Of a stretch of 64,000 bases of DNA, positions 4,765 through 19,908 are shown in pieces. The notes below the pieces were generated by a model, which had not been told where the DNA came from, made no database searches, and saw only the letters and a program-made list of their open reading frames with translations. The translations under genes were made by a program, and so were the position numbers. The stretch is from contig NZ_JAPDOG010000012.1 in NCBI RefSeq assembly GCF_026013545.1, positions 1-64,000 on the forward strand, read 5' to 3'. Position 1 is the first letter of the stretch; each line of letters begins with the position of its first letter. Source of the stretch: Defluviimonas salinarum. Its GTDB lineage: Bacteria > Pseudomonadota > Alphaproteobacteria > Rhodobacterales > Rhodobacteraceae.

Positions 4765-5604
4765 CTAGCCAGCGTCTGCCTCAGTCGCTTTGGCCTCTTG
4801 GGATGGTTTTGCGGTCAATGGGCCGATGGCGATGACTGGCGTTCGATCGCTGATACCCTTGAGTTCCAGCGTCCTGGTCGAAAGCGATCCTGGTTCGCGC
4901 CCGGCATTCCGGAAAACTTCGGGCGTAGCGAGTGCCTCGCCCCGTTGGGCAGCGTGCGTGACTCGCGCCAAAAGGTTCACATCAAGGCCGAACGCGCTGA
5001 TGCTGAGCATATCGCCGTCATTTGTCGAGGCCGTGCCGATATAGGCCTTGCCGGTGTGGACGCCGATCCCCACCGTTGCCGCATCCGGCAGTTGCCGCAG
5101 CCGGTCGAGCACCAGATCGGCTGCCGCCAGGGCCTTGCGCGCGTGGTCGCTGCCGACAAACCCCGGCGGCCAGACTGCAAAGACTGAATCTCCCTGATAC
5201 TCCAGCACGAACCCGTCGGTGCGGGCAAGCGCATCGGACACCGCCGACCGCATGGCAAGGACGGTCCTGGCGAACTCGGAGGGCGACAGGCGCGACGACA
5301 GTTCGACCGAGTTCCGGACGTCGACCATCATCATCGACATGTTGACCTCCGCCCCTCCTGGAAAGGCCTTCATGAACGAATCGCAGGCGTTGCAGAAGTT
5401 CTTGTTGCGTTCGGACTGATGAAGGCCGGTCAGCCTGACCAGCCATCCGCCCAACCCGCCCATCGGTGCGTCGCAGAGTTTGCACCGCGGTTGGCCGGGC
5501 AGCCTTCCGTAGCGCGCCTGTTTCTTCGCCAGGACCGGATGCCCCTCGGCAAAGATCTGGTGCCAAAGTTCGGAGTTGCCTTCGCTGTGCGTCAGTTCGG
5601 ACAT
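4765..5604 (-). CDS. Class III nucleotidyl cyclase with N-terminal four-cysteine module
   Basis: This 279-residue soluble protein has a class III catalytic domain at about residues 88-265. The two metal-binding aspartates are D95 (MMVDVRNS) and D139 (YQGDSVFAV), exactly 44 apart as in Rv1625c. The transition-state pair N210 and R214 is present. The substrate-selecting positions are E135, where adenylate cyclases have Lys and guanylate cyclases Glu, and S203, normally Asp or Cys. The product could therefore be cGMP or remain open. Residues 41-74 carry CKLC and CNAC pairs, likely a zinc or Fe-S site acting as a redox or metal sensor. It is the last gene of a three-gene minus-strand run, 30 bases after the Cys/His-rich protein. 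Confidence 0.88.
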   Translation of the reverse strand: MSELTHSEGNSELWHQIFAEGHPVLAKKQARYGRLPGQPRCKLCDAPMGGLGGWLVRLTGLHQSERNKNFCNACDSFMKAFPGGAEVNMSMMMVDVRNSVELSSRLSPSEFARTVLAMRSAVSDALARTDGFVLEYQGDSVFAVWPPGFVGSDHARKALAAADLVLDRLRQLPDAATVGIGVHTGKAYIGTASTNDGDMLSISAFGLDVNLLARVTHAAQRGEALATPEVFRNAGREPGSLSTRTLELKGISDRTPVIAIGPLTAKPSQEAKATEADAG

Positions 5605-5634
5605 TTCGAATTTCTCCTGTTGGCCGGCGTCGTG

Positions 5635-6618
5635 CTATTTGTTCCTGAGCATCGACGAAGGAGTTGGGCTGACATCCAGACAGGCCTGGTCGTTGCGCAA
5701 GGTTTCCGGGCTGCAGCACACCCCGGTTCCAAAGAGGAATGTCTCGCCGGCGATGGCAGCGATCTCAGGAAGCATTCCCCGGTAGAGCAGCCTCAATTCG
5801 TCACCCGGCTTGAATGGCCATTTGCCCGGAATCGTCTGCTCACCCGTGTGTCTGTCCGTGAGCCGGACGGCTGGAAGCGTCACCACGACACCGGCTTCAA
5901 GTTGTGCGTCCGCCAGACCGTCCGGCCTTTTGGCCAGGCTCATCACATGGTCGTAGTCTGGACCAAAGGCGCAGGTCTCGAACGCATCGCTCTGGAGACG
6001 GCCGGTCTGCAAATTGGTGAGATGCGCTTCGCTATCCTTGCCGAACAGCAGATAGGTCGCGAACTCGGGCAATTGCAGATGATGTGCGAAGGGCCGAAAA
6101 GTGACGATGCGGTTCACCTCGACCTCGAAGTCGTCGATCAGCGGCAGCACACGATCGGGACTCCAGGGGTAGAAATGAGGGTTCTTTTCGTCCTCCTCCG
6201 TGAAGGGCGGGAGCCCCTGGAATATCTTCGCCCGATAGTTGCGCTTACGGCCCGCCGCGAGATCGGGGATGGTGAATTGGTCGGTTTCGGCGTTCGAAAG
6301 GATGAACCAGTCCTTGGGGTTCTGGCGTCGCGCAGTGTCCAGCTTTTTTGCGACCCAATCGGGAAGCGAGGCCTCGAAGACAAGCTGGTACTTGTGCTCC
6401 TCCATGTGGAACTGGGTCATGTGGACGGCAAAGACCGTCTCGTGACCCACGAGCGTCATTGCATGCTGGTGCGGCATGTTGTCGATGCGCGGGCTGCGCA
6501 TCCGGACCGGGTCCATGTCGTGTCCGTCATGGGAACGGCAATGCGGGCAGGTGCAGCCGGGCCCATGGGCGGTGTGTTCGGTCGCGTCTTCAGCTTTTCT
6601 TGCGGTCTTTTCGGGCAT
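5635..6618 (-). CDS. Cys/His-rich protein of unknown function
   Basis: The protein has 327 residues and I do not recognise the family. The N terminus is rich in Cys and His (HGPGCTCPHCRSHDGHDMD), suggesting a small metal site. The body is soluble and mixed alpha/beta, with no membrane segment or signal peptide. A second short motif near the C terminus reads GTGVCCSPETL. The frame extends 24 codons further, but the ATG at 6618 has GAGGAGG nine bases upstream and avoids overlap with the decarboxylase. It sits between the decarboxylase (52-base gap) and the cyclase (30-base gap), so it is probably cotranscribed with both and may be their partner or a metal-dependent sensor. Confidence 0.75.
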   Translation of the reverse strand: MPEKTARKAEDATEHTAHGPGCTCPHCRSHDGHDMDPVRMRSPRIDNMPHQHAMTLVGHETVFAVHMTQFHMEEHKYQLVFEASLPDWVAKKLDTARRQNPKDWFILSNAETDQFTIPDLAAGRKRNYRAKIFQGLPPFTEEDEKNPHFYPWSPDRVLPLIDDFEVEVNRIVTFRPFAHHLQLPEFATYLLFGKDSEAHLTNLQTGRLQSDAFETCAFGPDYDHVMSLAKRPDGLADAQLEAGVVVTLPAVRLTDRHTGEQTIPGKWPFKPGDELRLLYRGMLPEIAAIAGETFLFGTGVCCSPETLRNDQACLDVSPTPSSMLRNK

Positions 6619-6670
6619 CGGCTTGTTCCCTCCTCGCATCGGTCGAAGTCCTGGTCGTGCCGAGCCGGCT

Positions 6671-8941
6671 TCAAGGGGGGGTAAGGCCATGGCGCGTCAT
6701 CACGTTGTCCGCCGCCTCGGATGCCGTCGCGGCGAGCACCTTGACGATGCGGCCAACGAAATCGCCCGTTCCGCCCTCGCTGAGCCATGGGTTCTGAGTG
6801 GTGGAGATCAGGAAGCTTACCGGAACGCCCTCCTGCGGATCCGCGCCGGCACGGCGCGCGAACGTGTTGACGAAGGACTGACCGTAGGCCTTCGGATCAA
6901 AGCTTGAAGACGTGACGAACATCGGCGCGGTGGGGATCTGGCCACCGTTGAACGAATGCATGCTGAGCTTCTTGAAGATGCTGTCGTTCATCTCGTTCAT
7001 CAGAGCGACATCGCGATTTACCCCCTCGGCGGTGACGAAGTTGAATGCGTAGGTCACGATCGTCAGATCGGGGCCGATGTCACGGAAGAGCTTGAACAAG
7101 GCCGGGTCGCCGATGAGAGCATCCACCAGGTCCGCATCGGCCAAAGGCACGATCCGCCGGGCGATCAGGTCCTTCTGATCCGCTATGTCGTGTGTGGTCG
7201 CCGTGGCGTCCCGCTCGGCCGGAAGCTGCTGGAACGGCGCCAGGGTGAAATTCGCCCCATTCAAACCGACAAGTGCCGCGTAGAGGCGCTTGCTGTTGAA
7301 GATGCATCGGCCCAGCAGTCTGCCATAGCCGCTTCTGTCCGTCCGAATGACGCGGTGTGACAGATACACGGCCGCGGCGGCCGCGCCGGGTTTCGATCCT
7401 TCGATGCCGTAGAATCCGACCGCCGGGTCGACACCGCCATGATAGACCACCGGCGCCTTGAACGAGATCGTGTCGCGCATCGCGCCGTTGCGGTAGCAGA
7501 GCGACCCGGCCGGGTAGGGCACGAACCCGGATTTGTGCGGGTCGGTGGTGATCGTGTCAACGTGTCTGAGGGCAAGGAATTGCCGCATCACATAGGCGTT
7601 GAACATCATTCCCGGGGCCCTCTTGCCGTCCTTCAACAAGAGCGCATGATGCGGGTTTTCCTCGGTCTCTGTGACGGCCTGCAGTTCCTCATGCTCGGTT
7701 CCGTGATGTCTGGGCTTGCGCAGGAGAGAGGCGAAGTACCCGCCCCAAGCCGCGTCCGCATGCACCGAGAATTCCATGCCCATTTCCCGGCTTTCAGCGC
7801 GAAAGGACAGGATGTCCGCCAACGGATCGACGGCGCTTTCCTCGGTAGACCCCATGACCGCGGTCAGTTGCATCACGGGTCGCCGCTCGGCCAGGCAATG
7901 GTCAATCGCCTTGCGCAGTTCCACCGTGTCCATGCGTCCATCGAGATCGACCCGGATCGAAACCAGGGACGCCGACCCAAGGCCCGCCAGTGCCATGGCC
8001 TTGGCCCAAGAGTAATGCGCCGTCGCGGGCGCAATCAGCACGGGCGGCAACACGTCGGGCAGGTACCGGCGGTGGAACTCCATCAGCCCGAGAGACTGGA
8101 CCGAGGTTCGCGCCAGGGCGGCTTCGATGACAGAGGCCGGAAGGCCCGACGTGCGCGCGATACGTGTGGCCAGGCCGAGAACCTCGTCGAGCGGGAGGTT
8201 CAGCAGTTGCCAGGGCGAGAGCTCGAGAAGCCGTGCGCGCTCTCCCGAGAGCAGCCTCACGGTCGTCTGCCTGGCACCCGCCAGTTCCGGGTCCACGTCT
8301 ATTGCGCGGGCGAGGGCGACACCCAGATACTTGGTGTTGCGCGAAGCCCAGACGCTTTCGCAGTTCGCCACCGAGCCGTCGCAGGTGATATGCCCCCAGG
8401 GCCTTGTCGCGCCGTTTTCCGTCGCGTCGGCATCGGGCAACTCGAAACCGAGCATCCGGCACAGGTCGTCGCCGACCTCCATCTCGAAAAGAGTCGTGGC
8501 GGGCGACGCCTCGGCGGCGACGTTGTTCTGGTTGTAAAGTAGGGCGGCAATATAGCCGACCAATCCGGGAAGCGACTGGTCCCAGTACATGTGCGAAAGG
8601 TTGCGAAAGCTCGACAGCGGTATCGACCCCTGCAGGTAATGCAACATGTCGTTGACCGCGTCGGAAATGAACGCTTTGGAGTCAGCCAGGCTCTCGGGTG
8701 GGCCGGCTCCGAAAATGCCGGGATCGGAGGGCATGTAGGCCCGCCGCGCCTCGACGTTCGCATCGATCGCTTTTGCAACCAGCAATTTCAGAAAATCGAC
8801 GTTCTCGCCTTTCGGTCCCAGAAACCAGGTTTCGGGCGTCCCGTCACCGCGCCGGTCAAGGGAAAGTCGTGAGTTCTCGTGGGACAGCGCATCCGCGAGG
8901 GAAGCATGAAGTCGACCGTGCCTGCCGTGGTGCTTCGCCAT
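6671..8941 (-). CDS. Long group II pyridoxal-phosphate-dependent decarboxylase
   Basis: At 756 residues the protein is much longer than typical glutamate or aromatic amino acid decarboxylases (about 450-550). The PLP-binding lysine lies in TTDPHKSGFVPYPAGS at about residue 470, and HADAAWGGYFASL matches the His/Asp region that stacks on and pairs with the cofactor. N-terminal features such as LSHMYWDQSLPGLVGYIAALLYNQNN also fit the group II family. The C-terminal ~200 residues are an extension. A GTG at 8956 is an alternative start; neither start has a strong ribosome site. The gene heads a minus-strand trio with the Cys/His-rich protein and the cyclase. The substrate is unknown; the products would be an amine and CO2. 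Confidence 0.85.
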   Translation of the reverse strand: MAKHHGRHGRLHASLADALSHENSRLSLDRRGDGTPETWFLGPKGENVDFLKLLVAKAIDANVEARRAYMPSDPGIFGAGPPESLADSKAFISDAVNDMLHYLQGSIPLSSFRNLSHMYWDQSLPGLVGYIAALLYNQNNVAAEASPATTLFEMEVGDDLCRMLGFELPDADATENGATRPWGHITCDGSVANCESVWASRNTKYLGVALARAIDVDPELAGARQTTVRLLSGERARLLELSPWQLLNLPLDEVLGLATRIARTSGLPASVIEAALARTSVQSLGLMEFHRRYLPDVLPPVLIAPATAHYSWAKAMALAGLGSASLVSIRVDLDGRMDTVELRKAIDHCLAERRPVMQLTAVMGSTEESAVDPLADILSFRAESREMGMEFSVHADAAWGGYFASLLRKPRHHGTEHEELQAVTETEENPHHALLLKDGKRAPGMMFNAYVMRQFLALRHVDTITTDPHKSGFVPYPAGSLCYRNGAMRDTISFKAPVVYHGGVDPAVGFYGIEGSKPGAAAAAVYLSHRVIRTDRSGYGRLLGRCIFNSKRLYAALVGLNGANFTLAPFQQLPAERDATATTHDIADQKDLIARRIVPLADADLVDALIGDPALFKLFRDIGPDLTIVTYAFNFVTAEGVNRDVALMNEMNDSIFKKLSMHSFNGGQIPTAPMFVTSSSFDPKAYGQSFVNTFARRAGADPQEGVPVSFLISTTQNPWLSEGGTGDFVGRIVKVLAATASEAADNVMTRHGLTPP

Positions 8942-9041
8942 CGCAAGGGTACTCACAAGATTGGAAACAATTCTATTGGCGGGTTAAGTCTTAATTATGT
9001 CAAGGAAAAATGAAGTTTGATGAACTTTGCCCTCAAAAGCG

Positions 9042-9058
9042 CCAGCCCGAACGGCTGG
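9042..9058 (-). terminator. Probable terminator after the CRP-SulP pair
   Basis: CCAGCC and GGCTGG form a six-base-pair stem around a five-base loop. Read on the minus strand it is followed by CGCTTTTG. It lies about 110 bases beyond the SulP stop and would separate the CRP-SulP unit from the decarboxylase operon. The short T run makes it moderate evidence only. Confidence 0.45.
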
Positions 9059-9165
9059 TGTTCAATTTGCGGTAGAATAGTGCGCGCTTGACCGCTCCGA
9101 ATTGGAAATTGCCTTGGTTCGGTTGCGATCCGGAGCGACGTGGCGGCTGTCCGTCAACGCTGAAG

Positions 9166-11343
9166 CTAGTCGTCAAGCAAGAGCAGATTCGTTCTGGTGA
9201 CCTTTTCAGCCAACTCTCGCGCAATGGTTGCGTGAAGGATCGCTGCCAGATCGCGGTCGTCGCGCTCCAGCCGATCGAGCGTCGCAGCTGACAGGCATTG
9301 CACGACTACCGGGCCATCAGCCACGACACTGGCGCCACGCGCGGTGTGCAGATAACGAGCGATTTCCCCAACCATTGCCCCCTCTGTCAAAACCCTGACA
9401 CGCATTGCCCCGTCTTCGCCTCGATCCAGATAGACGCCGAGACGACCCTCCTCGACCACAAAGATGTCGCGCCCGTCACTACCCTGCCGGAAAAGCACCT
9501 CGCCCTTATTCAGCATCCGGACTTCGAAAAGCCCTGCAAGCTCGGGCATGCGCGGATGCGCGCCCGCCGCCGCCCGTAGGAGCTTCTCGAGGCCCCCGCC
9601 TTGGGCGTCGGAAATCGGACACTCGGCAAGCAGCGCTTCTTCGACCTGCTCCAGGGCGGATTCGAGTGTGTCAGAGCGGCCGAACCCGAATGCCTCATCA
9701 AAGTCGTTCCGCCAGAGTTCGAGCGCCGTTTTGACCTCTGTCGATAGCCCGCAGAGATGCACACGCAACCGGCGCGAAGGTGCGAGATATCCCAACTTGC
9801 CAAGTCCGGCGCAAGCAGAGGAATCCATTCCGGTCACGGCGGAAAAGTCGAGTATCAACCAATCCGGCCGGTTTTCGGTGCCTGCCCCTGAGGCATCGAC
9901 ACGGCGGGCGTAGACCTCTTCCAGCAATCGATCAACCGAGCCGAAGAAAAGGTAACCTTGAAGCCGTGCAAGGCGCACCCTGTTCCATGTGTCTCGCAAA
10001 CACGCCTCTCTGTCTGGCGAACGGTCGACGTTGCTGCGGCGCGGCTGCGTGGCGATATTGCGACGAATGATCGGAATCCGCACGTAGCTCAGAACAAAGC
10101 TGATCAGGGCGAACAGTATTCCTGCAAGAATCCCGAGGAACAGACCCGTCGTTGCCGTGACGGCGACAATGGCGACGACGGTCAGCCAGTCCTGCAACGT
10201 AAGATGCCTGCGGGGCGCGATCATCCAGTCCTCCAGCATCGAAAGCCCGATGAAAAGCAGCAGCCCCCCGGTGACGAAGACGGGCACCGCAGCGACCACC
10301 TGTGCGGCAAAGACACCCCCTGCGAGCACCACCGCGCAATAGGCCAGGGTCATGGCACGGCCGCGGGCGCCTAGCTTGTCGGCGAAAATCGTTGAGCCCG
10401 TCGAAACGAAACTGGTTACCCCGCCGAAAAGGCCAAGTGTGGCGTTGGTCAGCCCGCCAACCCGCAACTCCCGGTTCATGTCGAGATTGCTCCGTGTCGC
10501 AAGTTCGGTTCCGGACGTGTTCAGCAGGAATGCGATCACGTTGATCGCGACGACGACGGCAAGGCTCGGGCCGGCGTTAAGGATCTGGCTCCAATCGATC
10601 TGCGCCAGAAACGCCGGATCCGGTCCAGCCCGGTCGCCAGAGGACGTGACCGAGGGCAGGAGACCCATCTGCCGAGCGGCGTCCACATCCATGCCCAGAA
10701 ACGCAAGTGTCAGGTAGAAACCCGCGATGAACACTGTCAACACGATCATCATCGTCGCTGCACCGGTCCAGAGCCTCAGCGAAAGCATCATCGAAACCGC
10801 AAATGTGACCGCTGGCAGAGTGATCACGAGGTTCGTCCACATGGCATGCGGAAGGCCAAGGAGGTCGTCTGCATTCGCTACGATCATCAGGGCGGCACGT
10901 GTGAGGAGCCAACCGGAACTGGCAAGGAACCCCAGGGCGACGGGATAGGGCAACATGCGTACAATTCGGCCGGCGCCGAACTTGCCCATGCCGAAAAGGA
11001 CCGCGCCCGAGAGAAGTGTGGAAAGTCCGATCAAGGTAAGTGCTGTGGGCAATGGGTTGTTGCCAGCGCCGGCAATCGCCGCGGCAGCCGCGGCAGTGAC
11101 GGCGGCGAGGATCGCGATCGAGGAATCCTGCGCGATCCCCAGCGCGCCCTGCAACCCTCCCCAGCGCGCGATCGCCATCGTCGCCACCAATGTCGAGACC
11201 AGGAACAGCGTCGTCCCGATCCCGACGCCCGAAGCAAGCGGGCCGGCGAAGACAAAGGCCCCGATGGCGACACAATGCCCGAGCGCATCAACGCCGAGCG
11301 CAAAGCCGAGCAGCGCTGGACGGGCAATCGCAAGTCTCGTCAT
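9166..11343 (-). CDS. SulP-family anion transporter with STAS and cyclic-nucleotide-binding domains
   Basis: The protein has 725 residues. About 430 N-terminal residues are strongly hydrophobic with 10-14 membrane segments and the SulP pattern (ALLGFALGVDALGHCVAIG). A STAS domain follows (LILDFSAVTGMDSSACAGLG), with serines at the usual regulatory site. The last ~115 residues form a cyclic-nucleotide-binding fold. Its phosphate cassette is GEIARYLHTARGASV, with E660 and R669 at the positions that contact the cyclic phosphate in PKA and CRP. SulP proteins move sulfate, bicarbonate or organic anions; the ion here is not evident. The start at 11343 is chosen because it leaves 46 bases after the CRP-type gene. 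Direct gating by a cyclic nucleotide is an inference. Confidence 0.88.
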   Translation of the reverse strand: MTRLAIARPALLGFALGVDALGHCVAIGAFVFAGPLASGVGIGTTLFLVSTLVATMAIARWGGLQGALGIAQDSSIAILAAVTAAAAAAIAGAGNNPLPTALTLIGLSTLLSGAVLFGMGKFGAGRIVRMLPYPVALGFLASSGWLLTRAALMIVANADDLLGLPHAMWTNLVITLPAVTFAVSMMLSLRLWTGAATMMIVLTVFIAGFYLTLAFLGMDVDAARQMGLLPSVTSSGDRAGPDPAFLAQIDWSQILNAGPSLAVVVAINVIAFLLNTSGTELATRSNLDMNRELRVGGLTNATLGLFGGVTSFVSTGSTIFADKLGARGRAMTLAYCAVVLAGGVFAAQVVAAVPVFVTGGLLLFIGLSMLEDWMIAPRRHLTLQDWLTVVAIVAVTATTGLFLGILAGILFALISFVLSYVRIPIIRRNIATQPRRSNVDRSPDREACLRDTWNRVRLARLQGYLFFGSVDRLLEEVYARRVDASGAGTENRPDWLILDFSAVTGMDSSACAGLGKLGYLAPSRRLRVHLCGLSTEVKTALELWRNDFDEAFGFGRSDTLESALEQVEEALLAECPISDAQGGGLEKLLRAAAGAHPRMPELAGLFEVRMLNKGEVLFRQGSDGRDIFVVEEGRLGVYLDRGEDGAMRVRVLTEGAMVGEIARYLHTARGASVVADGPVVVQCLSAATLDRLERDDRDLAAILHATIARELAEKVTRTNLLLLDD

Positions 11344-11389
11344 GCGTCTGCCCTTGGACGGGTCAGACCGGGACCCGGTGCAACGCACT

Positions 11390-12103
11390 TCACTCGTCGC
11401 TCTCAGCAAGACTGCGCAGCGCGCCTAGGTCGCAGGTCCAAGTCCGCTCCTCCCGCACGAGAACGCGGTCCTCATGAAAGTCGTGCAATACCCGGTTGAT
11501 CTTGGGGCGGCTGGCGCCCAGGAACTGGCTGAGTTCTCCCTGTGTCAGGTCGATGGACAGATGCGCCGTCGGGTCTGCGTCGGAGCCGTTCAACTCCCTT
11601 ACTGCGAACAGAATGAACCGCGCGAGTCGTGCCTTCAGGTTGTGAAGCGCCAATCCCTCCAGGCGGTCATCGGTGTCGCGAACGATGTTGCAAAGATACT
11701 GGATCACGGCAACGTTCAGCTCCGGGAACCGCGAAGCGATGTCGCGATAGTTTCGCCGGCTCAGCACCAGTGCCTGCACGGCGCTGACGGCGGTGGCATC
11801 CGCCGTACGGACGCCGCCATCTAAGCAGGCGATTTCGCCTACCAGATCGCCGGGAGAGGCAATGCGGATCAGCAATTCGCGTCCGGCTGCCGAAACGATG
11901 GAAAGTCTTATTCGCCCGTCCGCAACGATTAGCATGTACGAGCCTTCGTCGCCCTTGGAAAAGACCGCTTCACCGGCGACCCAACTGCGCCTGTGGACGT
12001 GCCGCGCGATTTCGGCAAGAACCGGTTCGTCGAGATCGCAGAAGATGGGAACGGAGCGCAGGATCTCCGAGTCGTGATCGGCTATACGATCCCGGTCGCG
12101 CAT
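11390..12103 (-). CDS. CRP/FNR-family transcriptional regulator
   Basis: This 237-residue protein has an N-terminal cyclic-nucleotide-binding beta barrel and a C-terminal winged helix (LTQGELSQFLGASRPKINRV, residues 187-205). The phosphate cassette GEIACLDGGVR keeps E90 and R99 at the cAMP-contact positions of CRP. No FNR-type cysteine cluster is seen. The frame extends 84 codons further upstream, but the ATG at 12103 follows GGGGGTG and begins where family similarity starts. It is 46 bases upstream of the SulP transporter and probably controls it and perhaps the decarboxylase-cyclase trio. Confidence 0.87.
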   Translation of the reverse strand: MRDRDRIADHDSEILRSVPIFCDLDEPVLAEIARHVHRRSWVAGEAVFSKGDEGSYMLIVADGRIRLSIVSAAGRELLIRIASPGDLVGEIACLDGGVRTADATAVSAVQALVLSRRNYRDIASRFPELNVAVIQYLCNIVRDTDDRLEGLALHNLKARLARFILFAVRELNGSDADPTAHLSIDLTQGELSQFLGASRPKINRVLHDFHEDRVLVREERTWTCDLGALRSLAESDE

Positions 12104-13728: not shown

Positions 13729-16700
13729 ATGTGTCCGCCCAATGTCATCGTTGGAACCGAGTTTGAAGACGGACTCTCTGGCTTCGCGGACGATGACCTG
13801 GTGTTCGGCCTCGACGGGAATGACACCCTGGCAGGGAACGGCGGCAACGACATTCTCGATGGCGGGTCGGGGAATGACCTTCTCGACGGAGGCGACGGAG
13901 ACGACACTCTGGTCGGCGCCACCGGCAATGATGAGCTGATCGGAGGATCCGGACGGGACACCTTCGTCATCCGGTCCGACCCGGCAAGCGCCGACACGAT
14001 CCATGACTTCACGTCCGAGGACTGGCTCGGCATCGATGCGGCGGAGTTCGGGCTGACGGAAGGCAATGGGCTGACAGGCGGCCGGCTGGATCCGGACTGG
14101 TTCGTCGTCGGCCCGTCTGCAACCGCCATCGGTCATGGCCAGTTCGTGTTCACCGGCGGGGCCGAGCCGTACTTGCTGTGGGATCCGGACGGAGCCGGCC
14201 CCGCAGCCGCTGTGACCATCGCGAGCTTCGCGCCGAATTCCACCGTGACGGCCAGCCAGTTCACGATCCTCTCCGCCGCGCCGGAGATCACCAGCGCCGC
14301 CTCGGTCTCGGTGGCCGAGAGCCAGACGGCGGCGCTCGACGTCGAGGCCCAGGACGATCTCGACGCCGAGGGTTCGGGGCTGACCTATGCGCTGACCGGC
14401 GGCGCCGATGCCGCGCAGTTCGCGATCGATCCCGATACCGGCGCGCTCAGCTTCCTCAGCCCGCCCGATGTGGCGGCGCCGGCCGACACCGATGGCGACA
14501 ATGTCTACGAGGTCCGGGTCACGGTGACAGACACGGACGGGCTCTCCACCCGCCAGGATCTTGCAGTGACCGTGACCGCCGCGCCGACCTCGGGCGGCTC
14601 CGCCACCGCGCTCGCCGCGACCGCCATTGCGCCGAACGTCTTCGAGACGCGGGTGACCGCGAGCGCCGACGATGTCGAAGAGCGCAATACCGGCTCGATC
14701 TATACCAACAGCACCGATCTCGAACTGTCCGTGGATGGCGCCAAGGGCGCGCAGACGATCGGGATCCGCTTCACCGGCATCGCCATTCCCAAGGACGCGG
14801 TGATTACCAACGCCTGGATTCAGTTCCAGACCGACGAGTCCGACATCGGCGCGGTGTCGCTGGAGATTCGCGGGCAGGCCAGCGACGACGCGGCGACTTA
14901 CTCGCGGACCAAGTTCGACGTTTCGTCGCGCCCCATCACCGATGCGGCGGTGATCTGGACCCCGCCCGACTGGACCATCATCGGCGCGGCAGACGCCGGC
15001 CAGCAGACGCCGGATCTCGCCGCGATCGTTCAGGAGATCATCAGCCGGCCCGGCTGGGTCGCGGACAACGGCATCGCCTTCGTCATTACCGGCAGCGGCA
15101 CGCGCACGGCCGAGTCCTTCGACGGGAACGCGGCCGCGGCGCCGCTGCTCCATATCGAGTGGCTGCCGGCCGAGGGCGGCGAACCGCCTGTCATCACCAC
15201 TCCTGCCACCGCCTCGGTGGCCGAGAACCAGACCGCGGTGCTCGACGTCGACGCCCAGGACGATCTCGACACCGAGGGCGCGGGGCTGACCTATGCGCTT
15301 ACCGGCGGGGCCGATGCCGCGCATTTCGCGATCGACCCGGACACCGGGGTGCTCAGCTTCAACTCCCCGCCCGACTTCGAGGCGCCGACCGATAGCGACA
15401 GCGACAATGTCTACGGCGTTCAGGTCACTGTGACGGACTCACGCGGGCTTACGGCCAGCCAGGACATCGCCGTGACGGTGACCGGTGTCAACGAGGCGCC
15501 GGAAATCACCAGCGCCGCCGCGGTCTCTATGACCGAGGGCGGGACCATCGCCGCCGACGTCGCGGCGCTCGATGATATCGATGCCGAGGGCGCGGGACTG
15601 ACCTACGCGCTGACGGGGGGCGCCGATCAGGGGCATTTCGCGCTTGATCCCGACACCGGAGTTCTCAGCTTCCACAGCCCGCCCGCCTTCAACGCGCCCG
15701 GCGATGCCGACGGCGACAACCGCTACGAGGTTCAGGTTACGGTGACCGACAGCGGCGGGCTCCCGACGAGCCAGGACATCGTCGTGACCGTGACCAGGAT
15801 CAACGCCGCCCCTGAGATCACCACTCCATCGGCGGCCTTGGTGGTCGAGAACCAGACCGCGGTGATCGACGTCGAAGCCCAGGACGATCTCGACACAGAG
15901 GGCGCGGGGCTGACCTACTCGATTACCGGGGGCGCCGACGCCGCGCGCTTCTCGATCCACCCCGACACCGGCGCGCTCAGCTTCCTCAATCCGCCCGACT
16001 TCGAGGCGCCGGATGATGCCGACGGCGACAACCGCTACGAGGTTCAGGTTACGGTGACCGACAGCGGCGGGCTCCCGACGAGCCAGGACATCGTCGTGAC
16101 CGTGACCGGTGTCAACGAGGCGCCGGAGATCACCAGTGCTGCCGCAGTCTCGGTGACCGAAGGTGGAACCACAGCCGCCGACGTCGCGGCCCAGGACGAT
16201 ATCGACACCGAGGGCGCGGGGCTTGTCTATACGCTGACCGGAGGCGCCGATGTCGCGCTCTTCGCGCTTGATCCCGACACCGGAGTTCTCAGCTTCCACA
16301 GCCCACCCGCCTTCGACGCGCCGGGCGATGCCGACGGCGACAATGTCTACGAGGTTCAGGTCACGGTGACGGACTCGGGCACGCTGACGGCAAGCCAGGA
16401 TCTCGCGATCACGGTGACCAAGGCTAACGCCGCCCCGGAAATCACCAGCGCGTCCGCGATCTCCGCGGCCGAGAACCAGACCGCGGTGATCGACGTCGAA
16501 GCCCAGGACGATTTCGACACCGAGGGCGCGGGGCTGACCTATGCGCTGACCGGCGGGGCCGACCGGGGGCACTTCTCGATTGATCCCGACACCGGGGTTC
16601 TCAGCTTCAATAGCCCGCCCGACTTCGAGGCGCCGGGCGACGCCGACACCGACAATGTCTACGAGGTCCAGGTCACGGTGACCGACGCGGGCGGGCTCCC

Positions 16701-19700
16701 GGCCACCCAGGACATCGCCGTGACGGTGACCGATGTCGTCGAGAACGTGACGCCGGTGACGTTCGAGCAAAGGGTGAGTTCGGGTGCCGACGACATCGAG
16801 CAAAGACCCTCGGGCTCGATCTACACCAACAGCAGCGATCTCGAACTGATCAATGACGGCGGCAACCTGCAGACGGTCGGGATCCGTTTCAACGCGATCG
16901 GTATCCCGCAGGGATCCATCATCACCAACGCCTACATTCAGTTCAAGACCGACGAGGTGAGCACCGGCGCCGCCTCGCTGGAGATCCGTGGCGACGACAG
17001 CGACAATGCCGCGCCGTTCACCAGCACTCCGGGGATTCTGTCCGCGCGCATGACGACGGACGCATCCGCGTTGTGGGTGCCACCCGACTGGACCGTCAGG
17101 GGCGAGGCCGGCGACGCCCAGCGCACCCCGAATTTGACGGCGATCGTGCAGGAGATCGTGAACCGGTCAGGCTGGACCGACCTCAACTCGATGGCCTTCA
17201 TCATCACCGGCACCGGCACCCGCACGGCCGAAGCCTTTGAGGGCGACGCAACCGGCGCGCCGCTCCTGCACATCGAATTCCTGCCGCCGCAACAGACCGA
17301 GGCGCCCCAGGTCGACCTGGACGGGCCCGGCGGCGGCACCGGCTATAGTACGACCTATCTGGAAAACGCCGCGGCGGTCGCGATTGCCGGAGCGGATGTG
17401 CTGATCACGGACGGCGACAGCACCCATCTGGTGGGCGCGACCATCGTACTGACGAACCCGCAGCAGGGCGATGTCCTGTCGGTCGATACCGCGGGGCTGC
17501 CGTCCGGCATCTCGGTCGACTCCAGTTCGACGGCGGACCGGATCGTCCTGACCGGCCTCGCACCGCTCGCGGATTACCAGACGGCGTTGCAGCGCATCCT
17601 GTTCCAGAACTCGAGCGAGACGCCCGACCCGACCCAGCGGACGGTCGAGGTCACGGTCTCGGACGGGATCTCCCCGTCCAATGCGGCACTCGCCACGATC
17701 GCGATCGACCGCGCCCCGGACCCGGTGCGTGACGCTGTATCGACCACGCCGGACACGCCGGCCGTCATCAGCGATGTGCTGGCAAACGACGACCCCGGCG
17801 ACGGGCCGGCCAGCGTCACCGGCTTTGACAGCGTCAGCTCGGCAGGCGGAACGGTGATCGCCGGTGCCAACAACAGCTTCAGCTATACGCCCCCGGCCGG
17901 CTTCATCGGCTCGGATTCCTTCACCTACACGATCACCGACTTCGACGGCGACAGCGCGACCGGCCTCGTCACCATCGCGGTCGGCGTGAACGCGCCGCCG
18001 ACGGCGGTCGTTCTCACATCCGCGGGGCCGTTCACGGAGAATATTTCCGGCGCCATCGCGGGTACTCTGGGCGCGAGCGACCCGGATCAGGGCGACACCC
18101 ACATCTTCTCGGTCAGCGACCCGCGCTTCGAGGTCGTCGGCAACCTGCTCAAGCTCAAGGACGGCGTGCGGATCGACTTCGAGAAGGAACCGGTCGTCGC
18201 ACTCGACGTGACGGCCACGGATTCCGGCGGGCTGTCGGTGACCGAAACCATCCTGATCGATGTCGCGGACGTCGCCGAGATCCGGTTTGCCGCGTTCGGG
18301 GACTGGGCCGACGGCGCCGGCACGGCCGCTGTCGCCAATCTGGTCAGGAACCTCAATGCCGAATTCATTGTGACGACGGGAGACAATATCTATAACCCGC
18401 TTGACACGGTCGACAGTCAGATTGGCCAGTTCTACTCCGACTATATCGGCAACTATTCCGGCGCATATGGGTCGGGGAGTTCCGTCAACCACTTCTTCCC
18501 CGCGCTCGGAAACCACGATTACAGTGAAGGACTGTTCGCCGAGTATATCGACTACTTCACCCTGCCGGGCAACGAGCGCTATTACGACTTCGAAATCGGC
18601 CCCGTGCATTTCTTTGCGGTGAACAGCAACGGCGAGGAACTGGACGGCTCAAGCAGCAGTTCAGTGCAGGGCCAATGGTTGCAGAACGCGCTGGCCGCTT
18701 CGACGTCGACGTTCAAGATCGTGTATTTCCATCATTCGGCCTATTCCTCCGGCGACAGCCACGGATCGACGACGTCCTTGCAGTGGCCATTCGAGGATTG
18801 GGGCGCGACAGCGGTCCTTAACGGCCACGACCATACCTACGAACGCATCCTACGCGACGATAATGGCGACGGCGAGGTGCTTCCCTACTTCGTCACCGGG
18901 CTCGGAGGACACGGAATAACCGGCTTCGCAACGCCAATCGGCGGCAGCGAGGTCCGCTACAACGGCGACTACGGCACCATGCTCGTCCAAGCCAGCGAGA
19001 CCAGCATCACGTTCGAGTTCTGGTCGGTCGCGGGCGGCGGCACCCTGATCGACAGCTACACGATCGACGCGCTGGCTGTTCCCGGAGGCGGATCGGCGCC
19101 ATCGGTGGTCGCGCAATACTCCATGGCCGCCTATGGCATTCCCGACCCGTCGGGCCTCGCCTATGACCCGTTCACGGACAGCTTCCTTCTCTCGGACTCC
19201 GAGATCGACGAGGAGCCGCATTTCGATTTCACCGACATCTTCCGCCTGACCCGCGCCGGCTTCCTGCAGGAGAGCTACACACCGAGTTCATTCACCGACG
19301 AGCCGACCGGACTGGCCATAGACGCCGTGGACCAGCTGATGTTCATCTCCGACGACGACACGCGCGAGATCTATGTCGTGGACCCCGACGACCCGACGAC
19401 GCTGCTGTATTCCTTCGACGCGATCGCGCTCGGCGCGAACGATCCGGAAGATACGGCGGTCGACGCCGCGAACGATCGCTTGTTCATTCTCAGCGGCGAA
19501 ACGGATCACAAGATCGTCGAAACGGACTACACCGGGTCACAGGTATACTCCACGCTGGTGCTGTCGAGTTCCTGGGACGTCGAAGCCCTCGCATATGACA
19601 GCAATGAGGACGTCTTCTACGTCGGGGGCGGGTTCAGCGATCACGTCTGGAAAGTCGACCGCGATGGGAACATCCTCGCAGATATGGATCTCCTGAAAGA

Positions 19701-19908
19701 CTATCGAAATCCGATCACTGACACGCGTGTTCATGTCAAGGACATCGAGCTTGCACCGGCCAGCGATGGCAGCGGCGAGACGCATATCTACGTCGCGGAC
19801 TTCGGCAACAGCCACGTGATGGACGGGTATCTCTACGAGATCGATCCGGGCGACCTCATCACGACCCCGTGGTCGACGCCGATCCCGAGCGACGAACTGA
19901 TTGCCTGA
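13729..19908 (+). CDS. Giant RTX/cadherin-repeat protein with metallophosphoesterase and propeller-like domain
   Basis: This is a 2,059-residue protein. Residues 20-75 are RTX nonapeptides ([20 protein letters not shown]). Cadherin-like repeats lie at 184-285 and 486-1004. Two copies of a beta domain beginning VFETRV or TFEQRV occur at about 302-481 and 1008-1188. Ig/cadherin-like spacers precede a calcineurin-type phosphoesterase at about 1519-1783, where GDWADG, GDNIYNP, GNHDYS, HHSAYSSG and NGHDHTYER supply the metal ligands. Residues 1790-2059 form repeats like the SdiA-regulated/phytase-like propeller. No Sec signal is visible, and RTX proteins normally leave by a type I system. RTX repeats at the N terminus, rather than near the C-terminal signal, are unusual. 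The ATG at 13729 has GAGGGGA upstream. IS remnants flank both sides. Confidence 0.88.
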   Translation: MCPPNVIVGTEFEDGLSGFADDDLVFGLDGNDTLAGNGGNDILDGGSGNDLLDGGDGDDTLVGATGNDELIGGSGRDTFVIRSDPASADTIHDFTSEDWLGIDAAEFGLTEGNGLTGGRLDPDWFVVGPSATAIGHGQFVFTGGAEPYLLWDPDGAGPAAAVTIASFAPNSTVTASQFTILSAAPEITSAASVSVAESQTAALDVEAQDDLDAEGSGLTYALTGGADAAQFAIDPDTGALSFLSPPDVAAPADTDGDNVYEVRVTVTDTDGLSTRQDLAVTVTAAPTSGGSATALAATAIAPNVFETRVTASADDVEERNTGSIYTNSTDLELSVDGAKGAQTIGIRFTGIAIPKDAVITNAWIQFQTDESDIGAVSLEIRGQASDDAATYSRTKFDVSSRPITDAAVIWTPPDWTIIGAADAGQQTPDLAAIVQEIISRPGWVADNGIAFVITGSGTRTAESFDGNAAAAPLLHIEWLPAEGGEPPVITTPATASVAENQTAVLDVDAQDDLDTEGAGLTYALTGGADAAHFAIDPDTGVLSFNSPPDFEAPTDSDSDNVYGVQVTVTDSRGLTASQDIAVTVTGVNEAPEITSAAAVSMTEGGTIAADVAALDDIDAEGAGLTYALTGGADQGHFALDPDTGVLSFHSPPAFNAPGDADGDNRYEVQVTVTDSGGLPTSQDIVVTVTRINAAPEITTPSAALVVENQTAVIDVEAQDDLDTEGAGLTYSITGGADAARFSIHPDTGALSFLNPPDFEAPDDADGDNRYEVQVTVTDSGGLPTSQDIVVTVTGVNEAPEITSAAAVSVTEGGTTAADVAAQDDIDTEGAGLVYTLTGGADVALFALDPDTGVLSFHSPPAFDAPGDADGDNVYEVQVTVTDSGTLTASQDLAITVTKANAAPEITSASAISAAENQTAVIDVEAQDDFDTEGAGLTYALTGGADRGHFSIDPDTGVLSFNSPPDFEAPGDADTDNVYEVQVTVTDAGGLPATQDIAVTVTDVVENVTPVTFEQRVSSGADDIEQRPSGSIYTNSSDLELINDGGNLQTVGIRFNAIGIPQGSIITNAYIQFKTDEVSTGAASLEIRGDDSDNAAPFTSTPGILSARMTTDASALWVPPDWTVRGEAGDAQRTPNLTAIVQEIVNRSGWTDLNSMAFIITGTGTRTAEAFEGDATGAPLLHIEFLPPQQTEAPQVDLDGPGGGTGYSTTYLENAAAVAIAGADVLITDGDSTHLVGATIVLTNPQQGDVLSVDTAGLPSGISVDSSSTADRIVLTGLAPLADYQTALQRILFQNSSETPDPTQRTVEVTVSDGISPSNAALATIAIDRAPDPVRDAVSTTPDTPAVISDVLANDDPGDGPASVTGFDSVSSAGGTVIAGANNSFSYTPPAGFIGSDSFTYTITDFDGDSATGLVTIAVGVNAPPTAVVLTSAGPFTENISGAIAGTLGASDPDQGDTHIFSVSDPRFEVVGNLLKLKDGVRIDFEKEPVVALDVTATDSGGLSVTETILIDVADVAEIRFAAFGDWADGAGTAAVANLVRNLNAEFIVTTGDNIYNPLDTVDSQIGQFYSDYIGNYSGAYGSGSSVNHFFPALGNHDYSEGLFAEYIDYFTLPGNERYYDFEIGPVHFFAVNSNGEELDGSSSSSVQGQWLQNALAASTSTFKIVYFHHSAYSSGDSHGSTTSLQWPFEDWGATAVLNGHDHTYERILRDDNGDGEVLPYFVTGLGGHGITGFATPIGGSEVRYNGDYGTMLVQASETSITFEFWSVAGGGTLIDSYTIDALAVPGGGSAPSVVAQYSMAAYGIPDPSGLAYDPFTDSFLLSDSEIDEEPHFDFTDIFRLTRAGFLQESYTPSSFTDEPTGLAIDAVDQLMFISDDDTREIYVVDPDDPTTLLYSFDAIALGANDPEDTAVDAANDRLFILSGETDHKIVETDYTGSQVYSTLVLSSSWDVEALAYDSNEDVFYVGGGFSDHVWKVDRDGNILADMDLLKDYRNPITDTRVHVKDIELAPASDGSGETHIYVADFGNSHVMDGYLYEIDPGDLITTPWSTPIPSDELIA
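14281..16740 (+). repeat. Cadherin-like tandem repeats in the giant gene
   Basis: Six copies of a unit of about 305-320 bases begin near 14281, 15186, 15500, 15815, 16120 and 16435. The first is separated from the rest by another domain. Each encodes VxAQDDxDTEGAGLTYALTG followed by an FxxxPDTGxLSF strand and a DNVYEVQVTVTD strand. Long stretches are identical in DNA between units; for example, the block around 15700-15790 recurs at 16017-16107. This indicates recent duplication or gene conversion. Confidence 0.85.

Follow-up and report, generated by a model that had tools for sequence, protein, structure and literature searches.

Does a nucleotide cyclase standing beside a decarboxylase, an anion transporter and a CRP-type regulator mark a functional circuit, and if so, which of these genes belong to it? 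The question is raised by a stretch of 64,000 nucleotides from Defluviimonas salinarum (contig NZ_JAPDOG010000012.1, positions 1 to 64,000; here called the window), part of a genome of 5.0 Mb in 88 contigs. An earlier note on this DNA had joined five genes, including one for a protein of 327 residues left as unknown, into a cyclic-nucleotide circuit with a gated transporter, and had added a model of CO2/bicarbonate sensing. The open reading frame (ORF) list and Pfam agree that all five genes are real, lie on the minus strand at the positions given below and carry the domains claimed for them. Among the matches listed in searches of the open PMC literature, judged by title and the opening of the abstract, none dealt with these genes as a set.

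The answer favored here, to which we give somewhat better than an even chance from comparison of the sequences, is that the locus would encode a private cyclase-to-CRP cyclic-nucleotide switch with a split decarboxylase as its output. Its evidence comes from the order of the genes in relatives, from the likeness of the 327-residue protein (hereafter the partner) to a domain of a fungal enzyme, and from candidate operators.

Conservation of gene order

Thirteen distinct relatives of the partner locus were collected, eight from a genome collection (six Rhodobacterales contigs and two gammaproteobacterial metagenome-assembled genomes) and six from a family search, with L003 lying on the same contig as L014. 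In all 13, decarboxylase, partner and cyclase genes are contiguous, in identical order and on one strand, with intergenic gaps of -47 to 149 bases and partner proteins 40–64% identical to that of the window; these three genes are the conserved core of the cassette. A CRP-type gene was found in the fetched flank of 11 of the 13 by a profile made from ten of these CRPs and the window's, and near 10 when the window CRP alone served as tblastn query; the contig of L013 ends within the decarboxylase, and the fetched flanks of L009 and L013 are short. For background, HTH_Crp_2 matched 8–21 times per genome (E ≤ 0.001) in seven genomes of 3.6–5.0 Mb, a total of 102 in ~28.6 Mb, i.e. about one per 280 kb or ~0.07 per 20 kb. 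Because the core is contiguous throughout and a CRP-type gene is so often close, the proposed link between cyclase, decarboxylase and CRP survives the comparison with other genomes; the transporter and the bicarbonate model, as described below, found no support. The cassette is rare, sporadically distributed and probably portable. The partner is present in 7 of 295 genomes of the family and in one of 289 of the class, the window's own, and had no match among 72,556 plasmid records, and the decarboxylase profile matches 8 of the 295 family genomes, namely the seven with the partner and G022.

The window copy is a variant, in which a gene for a SulP-STAS-CNB anion transporter (CNB, cyclic-nucleotide-binding; 9166..11343, minus strand; Pfam Sulfate_transp, STAS and cNMP_binding) is placed between the CRP and decarboxylase genes. 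Its start, ATG 11343, is internal to the listed ORF 11409-9166, and the E660/R669 pair named in the earlier note is present when counted from that ATG (E682/R691 from the ORF start). Membership of this gene in the circuit was rejected, as it lies near only one of the 13 relatives (L010) and shows no linkage across the 295 family genomes: relatives of SulP-STAS-CNB occur in 20 of them (E ≤ 1e-40, the match reaching the CNB part in 18), and only the window's own is also one of the eight with the decarboxylase. On these counts the transporter is an occasional neighbor and probably not part of the conserved cassette. Its scattered relatives may possibly be nucleotide-gated anion transporters in their own right. 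The hairpin between the two apparent gene units (9037..9060, minus strand; CCAGCC..GGCTGG, then CGCTTTT) came up in an inverted-repeat search and had been called a possible terminator; the hairpin itself is real (~9060-9040), yet no more than four T follow in its tail, and a terminator scan was silent on it.

The decarboxylase and its partner

The decarboxylase gene (6671..8956, minus strand; phmmer, Pfam Pyridoxal_deC) encodes a pyridoxal phosphate (PLP)-dependent enzyme whose best solved relative is a noncanonical aromatic amino acid decarboxylase from the mushroom Psilocybe cubensis (PcncAAAD; PDB 6ebn), matched by phmmer over residues 25-719 of 1013 (E 5.1e-124). The homology takes in the whole N-terminal, catalytic domain, and the PLP residues are kept: H314, D401 and K475 are invariant in the decarboxylase alignment A1, as is Y481. 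Bacterial tyrosine decarboxylases (5hsi, 7cwx; TIGR03811) belong to the same PLP branch (TIGR03811 280 bits; 5hsi E 3.8e-68), but the window protein falls far under the TIGR03811 cut-off of 905 bits, the match ends at residue 565 of 761, and a partner gene comes next. Unlike PcncAAAD, the bacterial system is divided between separate genes in the window and in all 13 relatives, and a cyclase gene and in most cases a CRP gene accompany them. Matches came from 8 genomes in a set of 295 and 8 in a set of 398, two being common to both; no fused bacterial decarboxylase-partner was seen in these, the open frames being of 616-801 residues.

The partner gene (5635..6618, minus strand) is where the earlier note stopped at "unknown" and missed a likeness to 6ebn. 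The window protein has no Pfam or NCBIfam match, and of the other 13 family members just two matched Pfam, each once and weakly (E 0.081 and 0.27). An AlphaFold2 model of the partner (mean predicted local distance difference test, pLDDT, 70; predicted TM-score, pTM, 0.72) was compared with the PDB using Foldseek, and the only matches under E 0.001 were two 6ebn chains (E 1.4e-7 and 3.0e-7; the next 2.4e-3), pointing to the fold of the appendage domain, in an output without an aligned range. A profile that joins decarboxylase and partner by way of L009, where the two genes are naturally in frame, covers 6ebn 23-768 in alignment and so extends beyond the domain border, placed at 717/718 in passages of PMC13062060, with the start of the partner on the start of the C-terminal appendage domain. 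Against the partner profile A3 alone the 6ebn stretch scored 12.1 bits, a value equaled by 0 of 5000 shuffles (best 10.0); because the stretch was chosen for having aligned, this result is supportive, not independent. In L009, L017 and L019 both genes lie in the same frame, and what separates them is the stop codon of the decarboxylase with one to eight further codons, an arrangement to be expected if the pair arose by splitting or is open to fusion.

The partner thus probably represents a stand-alone homologue of the C-terminal appendage domain of 6ebn, and because of this resemblance we read the decarboxylase as probably of the fungal type, but split in two. According to passages of PMC13062060, the fungal enzyme loses all activity without its C-terminal domain and partly regains it by co-expression. 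Given the likeness in fold and profile, the in-frame pairs and the need of the fungal enzyme for its domain, we propose the partner as a putative decarboxylase subunit. An unassigned protein family would in this way gain a candidate function, and the comparison suggests that the appendage domain of the mushroom enzyme may also exist as a separate bacterial protein; among the matches listed in open PMC, none treated bacterial forms of this domain.

Six His, two Glu and two Asp of the partner (residues 52, 66, 73, 75, 148, 179, 197, 199, 221 and 223) do not vary among the 14 members, which suggests a metal or ligand site; no such site is described in the passages of PMC13062060 on the fungal enzyme. 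The label of Cys/His protein given to the partner earlier needs amending, as the N-terminal Cys cluster is found only in 2 of 14 members (the window and L008), and Cys is not among the polar residues that are invariant, which include His, Glu and Asp. Three other proteins were compared with profile A3 by hhalign, i.e. the FIST protein of the plasmid cassette L022 (below), a 317-residue neighbor of a Rhizobium decarboxylase relative and a neighbor in SC52, and none showed similarity.

The class III cyclase

The third core gene (4765..5604, minus strand) encodes a class III nucleotide cyclase, as judged from Pfam, alignment and PDB profile matches, and the protein has a Cys4 motif in its N-terminal part. 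Its PF00211 (Guanylate_cyc) score in the Pfam scan of the window protein, 21.5 bits, is slightly below the cut-off of 21.9. In alignment A2 (14 members) D95, D139 and R214 are invariant and N210 is present in 13; we take D95/D139 to be the metal-binding Asp pair and N210/R214 the transition-state residues, and with these the proteins carry the metal pair, Asn and Arg that mark the class. The cyclase profile matches PDB class III cyclases, and the cassette enzymes share the catalytic domain and these residues with cyanobacterial and pseudomonad members (2w01, 1wc0, 3r5g). They differ in a Cys4 stretch upstream of the domain (C41, C44, C71 and C74 in all 14, with C71 unread, X, in L015), and in the residues that recognize the base. 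Adenylate cyclases of class III use a Lys and an Asp/Thr as the pair that recognizes adenine; here the Lys position holds Glu, Gln or Ala, and all 14 have Ser in place of the Thr, so the pair of a cyclic AMP (cAMP)-forming enzyme is absent, although 2w01 itself has Glu at the Lys position. The unorthodox pair therefore makes the cyclase product unpredictable.

The cassette cyclase is the only PF00211 match (E ≤ 1e-3) in three of the six cassette genomes searched, the window genome (G000), G555 and G358, and because no other class III cyclase was found there, nucleotide, signal and regulon could be worked out from one locus. PF00211 matched twice each in G361 and G438, 16 times in G526 and 10 times in G022. 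Cyclases of the partner-containing cassettes (the first kind) match this family weakly (the window's at 22.3 bits in the genome search), and other divergent cyclases could therefore have escaped notice. A search of seven genomes brought up no class I cyclase.

Related FIST-type cassettes

Decarboxylase relatives are also carried by plasmids (27 records); among these are L021, from Rhodobacteraceae, and five plasmids of Aliiroseovarius crassostreae, of which one was inspected (L022). The gene order is CRP, decarboxylase, FIST protein and cyclase in L022; decarboxylase, S9 peptidase, separate genes for FIST_N and FIST_C, and cyclase in L021; and decarboxylase, S9 peptidase, FIST and cyclase in G022. 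The cyclases of L022 and L021 match PF00211 strongly (E 2.5e-43 and 1.3e-41), have an HNOBA stretch, and, with that of L040, are distant from profile A2 (hhalign 20% identity for L022; hmmsearch E 9.7e-8 for L021 and 5.7e-9 for L040); the motifs EKVKTIGD and FDVWGD of L022 are read as a Lys/Asp pair. In a decarboxylase tree of 19 rows, one of the two outside rows being on a very long branch, the three FIST-type sequences form a clade (99/99), and a fork with support of 81/81 unites the 14 of the first kind. Related decarboxylases are found with class III cyclases of two different kinds, and a Rhizobium relative has no annotated cyclase within its 8 kb flanks. FIST proteins have been linked to nitric oxide (NO) or heme in passages of PMC8846402.

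A gene for an S9-family peptidase adjoins the decarboxylase in both cassette kinds (L009:5485-7557, L010:5402-7519, L018:13247-15298, L021:10248-12299 and L040:9900-11936), and a DUF4331 gene is convergent to the cyclase in L021, L022 and L040, i.e. in all three FIST-type cassettes seen.

The CRP-type regulator and candidate operators

The regulator gene (11390..12103, minus strand; Pfam cNMP_binding and HTH_Crp_2) does encode the E90/R99 pair pointed out earlier. In alignment A5 (11 CRPs, that of L009 left out) the Glu is kept in all 10 with letters at that position and the Arg in all 11, which is the phosphate motif of CRPs that bind cyclic nucleotide monophosphates. When the CRP of L012, from another genus, was searched against the window genome, its best match was the window CRP (9.2e-32; next 4.0e-12).

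The consensus of cAMP-CRP is TGTGA-N6-TCACA. Loci were scanned for this operator, with 20 shuffles per locus by two-base blocks as control, and nine perfect sites were found in 6 of the 13 relatives; shuffling gave 0-0.1 perfect sites and 0.1-0.75 sites with ≤1 mismatch per relative's locus. L012, L014 and L015 have one each between the CRP and a small secreted-type gene; L017 has two, upstream of secreted-type and P47-like genes; L019 has one between CRP and a P47-like gene and one near the edge; and L010 has one before the S9-decarboxylase operon and one where the CRP gene ends. All sites of L016 (one) and L020 (three) carry a mismatch, and in each of these loci one site precedes the decarboxylase. 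A further perfect site, in L021, is inside an annotated ABC-transporter gene. Genome-wide counts of perfect sites, with those at the cassette in brackets, are 4 (2) in G555, 3 (2) in G438 and 1 (1) in G483, which is 64% complete; over eight genomes, 5 of 15 perfect sites are at the cassette. No palindrome common to the upstream regions of the window CRP and decarboxylase was found.

The arrangement resembles E. coli-type cAMP-CRP in its CRP-type protein, the Glu/Arg pocket and the TGTGA-N6-TCACA sites of relatives, and departs from it in having a class III, not class I, cyclase and 0-4 perfect sites per genome in eight genomes, with a concentration at the cassette in three of them, G555, G438 and G483.

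P47-like genes stand beside the cassette in L012, L014, L015, L017 and L019 (e.g. L014:12521-17907), three in L014 being called by Pfam PF06597 and the remainder by clustering or tblastn. The same five loci share the small secreted-type gene (one cluster), and consensus CRP sites lie among these genes; the small secreted-type protein of L012 has a VPLPA-like tail.

Proposed mechanism and alternative explanations

The private switch has its computational support in the order of the genes, in the partner's resemblance to the fungal domain, in the active-site residues that are kept and in the operators that several relatives have gathered at the locus, and to these we add an inferred signal, nucleotide, substrate, direction of regulation, wiring and decarboxylase-partner complex. 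A signal, perhaps via the conserved Cys4 domain of the cyclase, would set cyclic-nucleotide output; the neighboring CRP would bind the product through its Glu/Arg pocket and occupy the TGTGA-N6-TCACA operators at the cassette, acting on its own gene, the decarboxylase operon, or the adjoining secreted-type/P47-like operon. The decarboxylase would mainly be an output, making an amine, and the partner would support its activity, as the domain does in the fungal enzyme. Such a locus would offer a compact cyclic-nucleotide circuit of cyclase, receptor, operator and output. We propose more tentatively, as a minority possibility, a bolder version, a portable second-messenger cassette of an undescribed kind, with a split fungal-type aromatic amino acid decarboxylase wired to a private cyclase, CRP and operators. 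In it the cyclase, without the adenine-recognition Lys, may make a nucleotide other than cAMP, the state of the decarboxylase may feed back on the cyclase, and related decarboxylases would have recruited cyclases of two different kinds.

Several results weigh against the private switch with a split enzyme as its output. On the enzyme side, the partner profile alone matched no PDB sequence at E ≤ 10, and the fold match to 6ebn is moderate (TMq 0.48 and 0.46, from a model with pLDDT 70). A two-domain model was colinear with 6ebn (E 5.7e-45, 1096 columns), but with a TM-score of 0.27, a root-mean-square deviation (rmsd) of 26 and a pTM of 0.46 it is too weak to show docking. The acidic ligands E637/E638 of 6ebn, given as calcium ligands of fungal site A in passages of PMC13062060, align with N670/G671 in the window decarboxylase, a further difference from PcncAAAD, and calcium activation is therefore not predicted. 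A search of G022 and three plasmid records (E ≤ 10, without a positive control) gave no match to the partner, which was thus not found with FIST-type decarboxylases and so is not always needed. On the signaling side, none of the 14 cyclases has the usual adenine-recognition Lys (three have Glu there, three Gln and eight Ala), and no CRP-type gene was found by the profile in the flanks of L008 and L018. The window CRP is only 23-32% identical to the ten other cassette CRPs. In its recognition helix SRPKINR replaces the RE...R of 9 of the 10 others in the alignment, a pattern like R180/E181/R185 of E. coli CRP; the tenth, that of L016, has RE...K. No operator with ≤1 mismatch was found in L008, L009, L011, L013 and L018, nor in the 64 kb of the window; perfect sites elsewhere in the genome, with none at the cassette, number 1 for the window genome, 4 for G526 and 2 for G022, and G361 and G358 have zero.

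The main doubts about the private switch concern direction and the ligand of the CRP. If the decarboxylase and its partner were instead a sensor, with binding of substrate or amine relayed to the cyclase and the CRP passing the signal on, one would understand why the cyclase is the last gene of the operon in 13 of 13, why class III cyclases of two kinds accompany related decarboxylases, and why the partner has so many invariant His, Glu and Asp residues. We consider this unlikely, if well short of negligible, as the partner is explained as an enzyme domain, FIST proteins, of a family with sensor members, occupy the slot before the cyclase in related cassettes, and the sites that precede the decarboxylase operon, a perfect one in L010 and ones with a single mismatch in L016 and L020, would make the decarboxylase an output. 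It is a shade more doubtful that the CRP answers to another ligand, such as heme, NO or oxygen, with the cyclase product serving other receptors. CRP/FNR relatives do differ in ligand. The FIST proteins of the related cassette come from a family reported, in passages of PMC8846402, to bind NO or heme. The retention of the Glu and Arg in the aligned CRPs (10 of 10 with letters there and 11 of 11) and the fit of the operators to the cAMP-CRP consensus nevertheless argue for a cyclic nucleotide.

The CO2/bicarbonate circuit with a gated SulP transporter, as the earlier note had it, is very improbable. Bicarbonate-responsive class III cyclases have Thr at the base-recognition position; the Ser that cassette cyclases have there, and the closeness of a SulP-STAS-CNB gene to the operon in the window and L010, are what can be said for it, set against an unorthodox base-recognition pair, an Asp in place of that Thr in the L022 cyclase, and a transporter gene not seen near 12 of the 13 relatives (some flanks being short) and unlinked in the 295 genomes. 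A neighborhood due to chance or hitch-hiking, with no functional coupling, is hardly credible. Its sporadic occurrence, with the partner in so few genomes of the family and in the window's genome alone of the class, would fit, but such an origin is already contradicted by conservation, the order being identical in all 13 relatives at 40–64% partner identity, and by the cassette cyclase being the only class III cyclase found in three genomes.

Other features of the window

Scans of the window for tRNA genes and Rfam families gave no match. Near the cassette, on the plus strand at 13729-19908, the window encodes a 2059-residue protein with RTX repeats and cadherin-like, bacterial Ig and calcineurin-like phosphoesterase domains.

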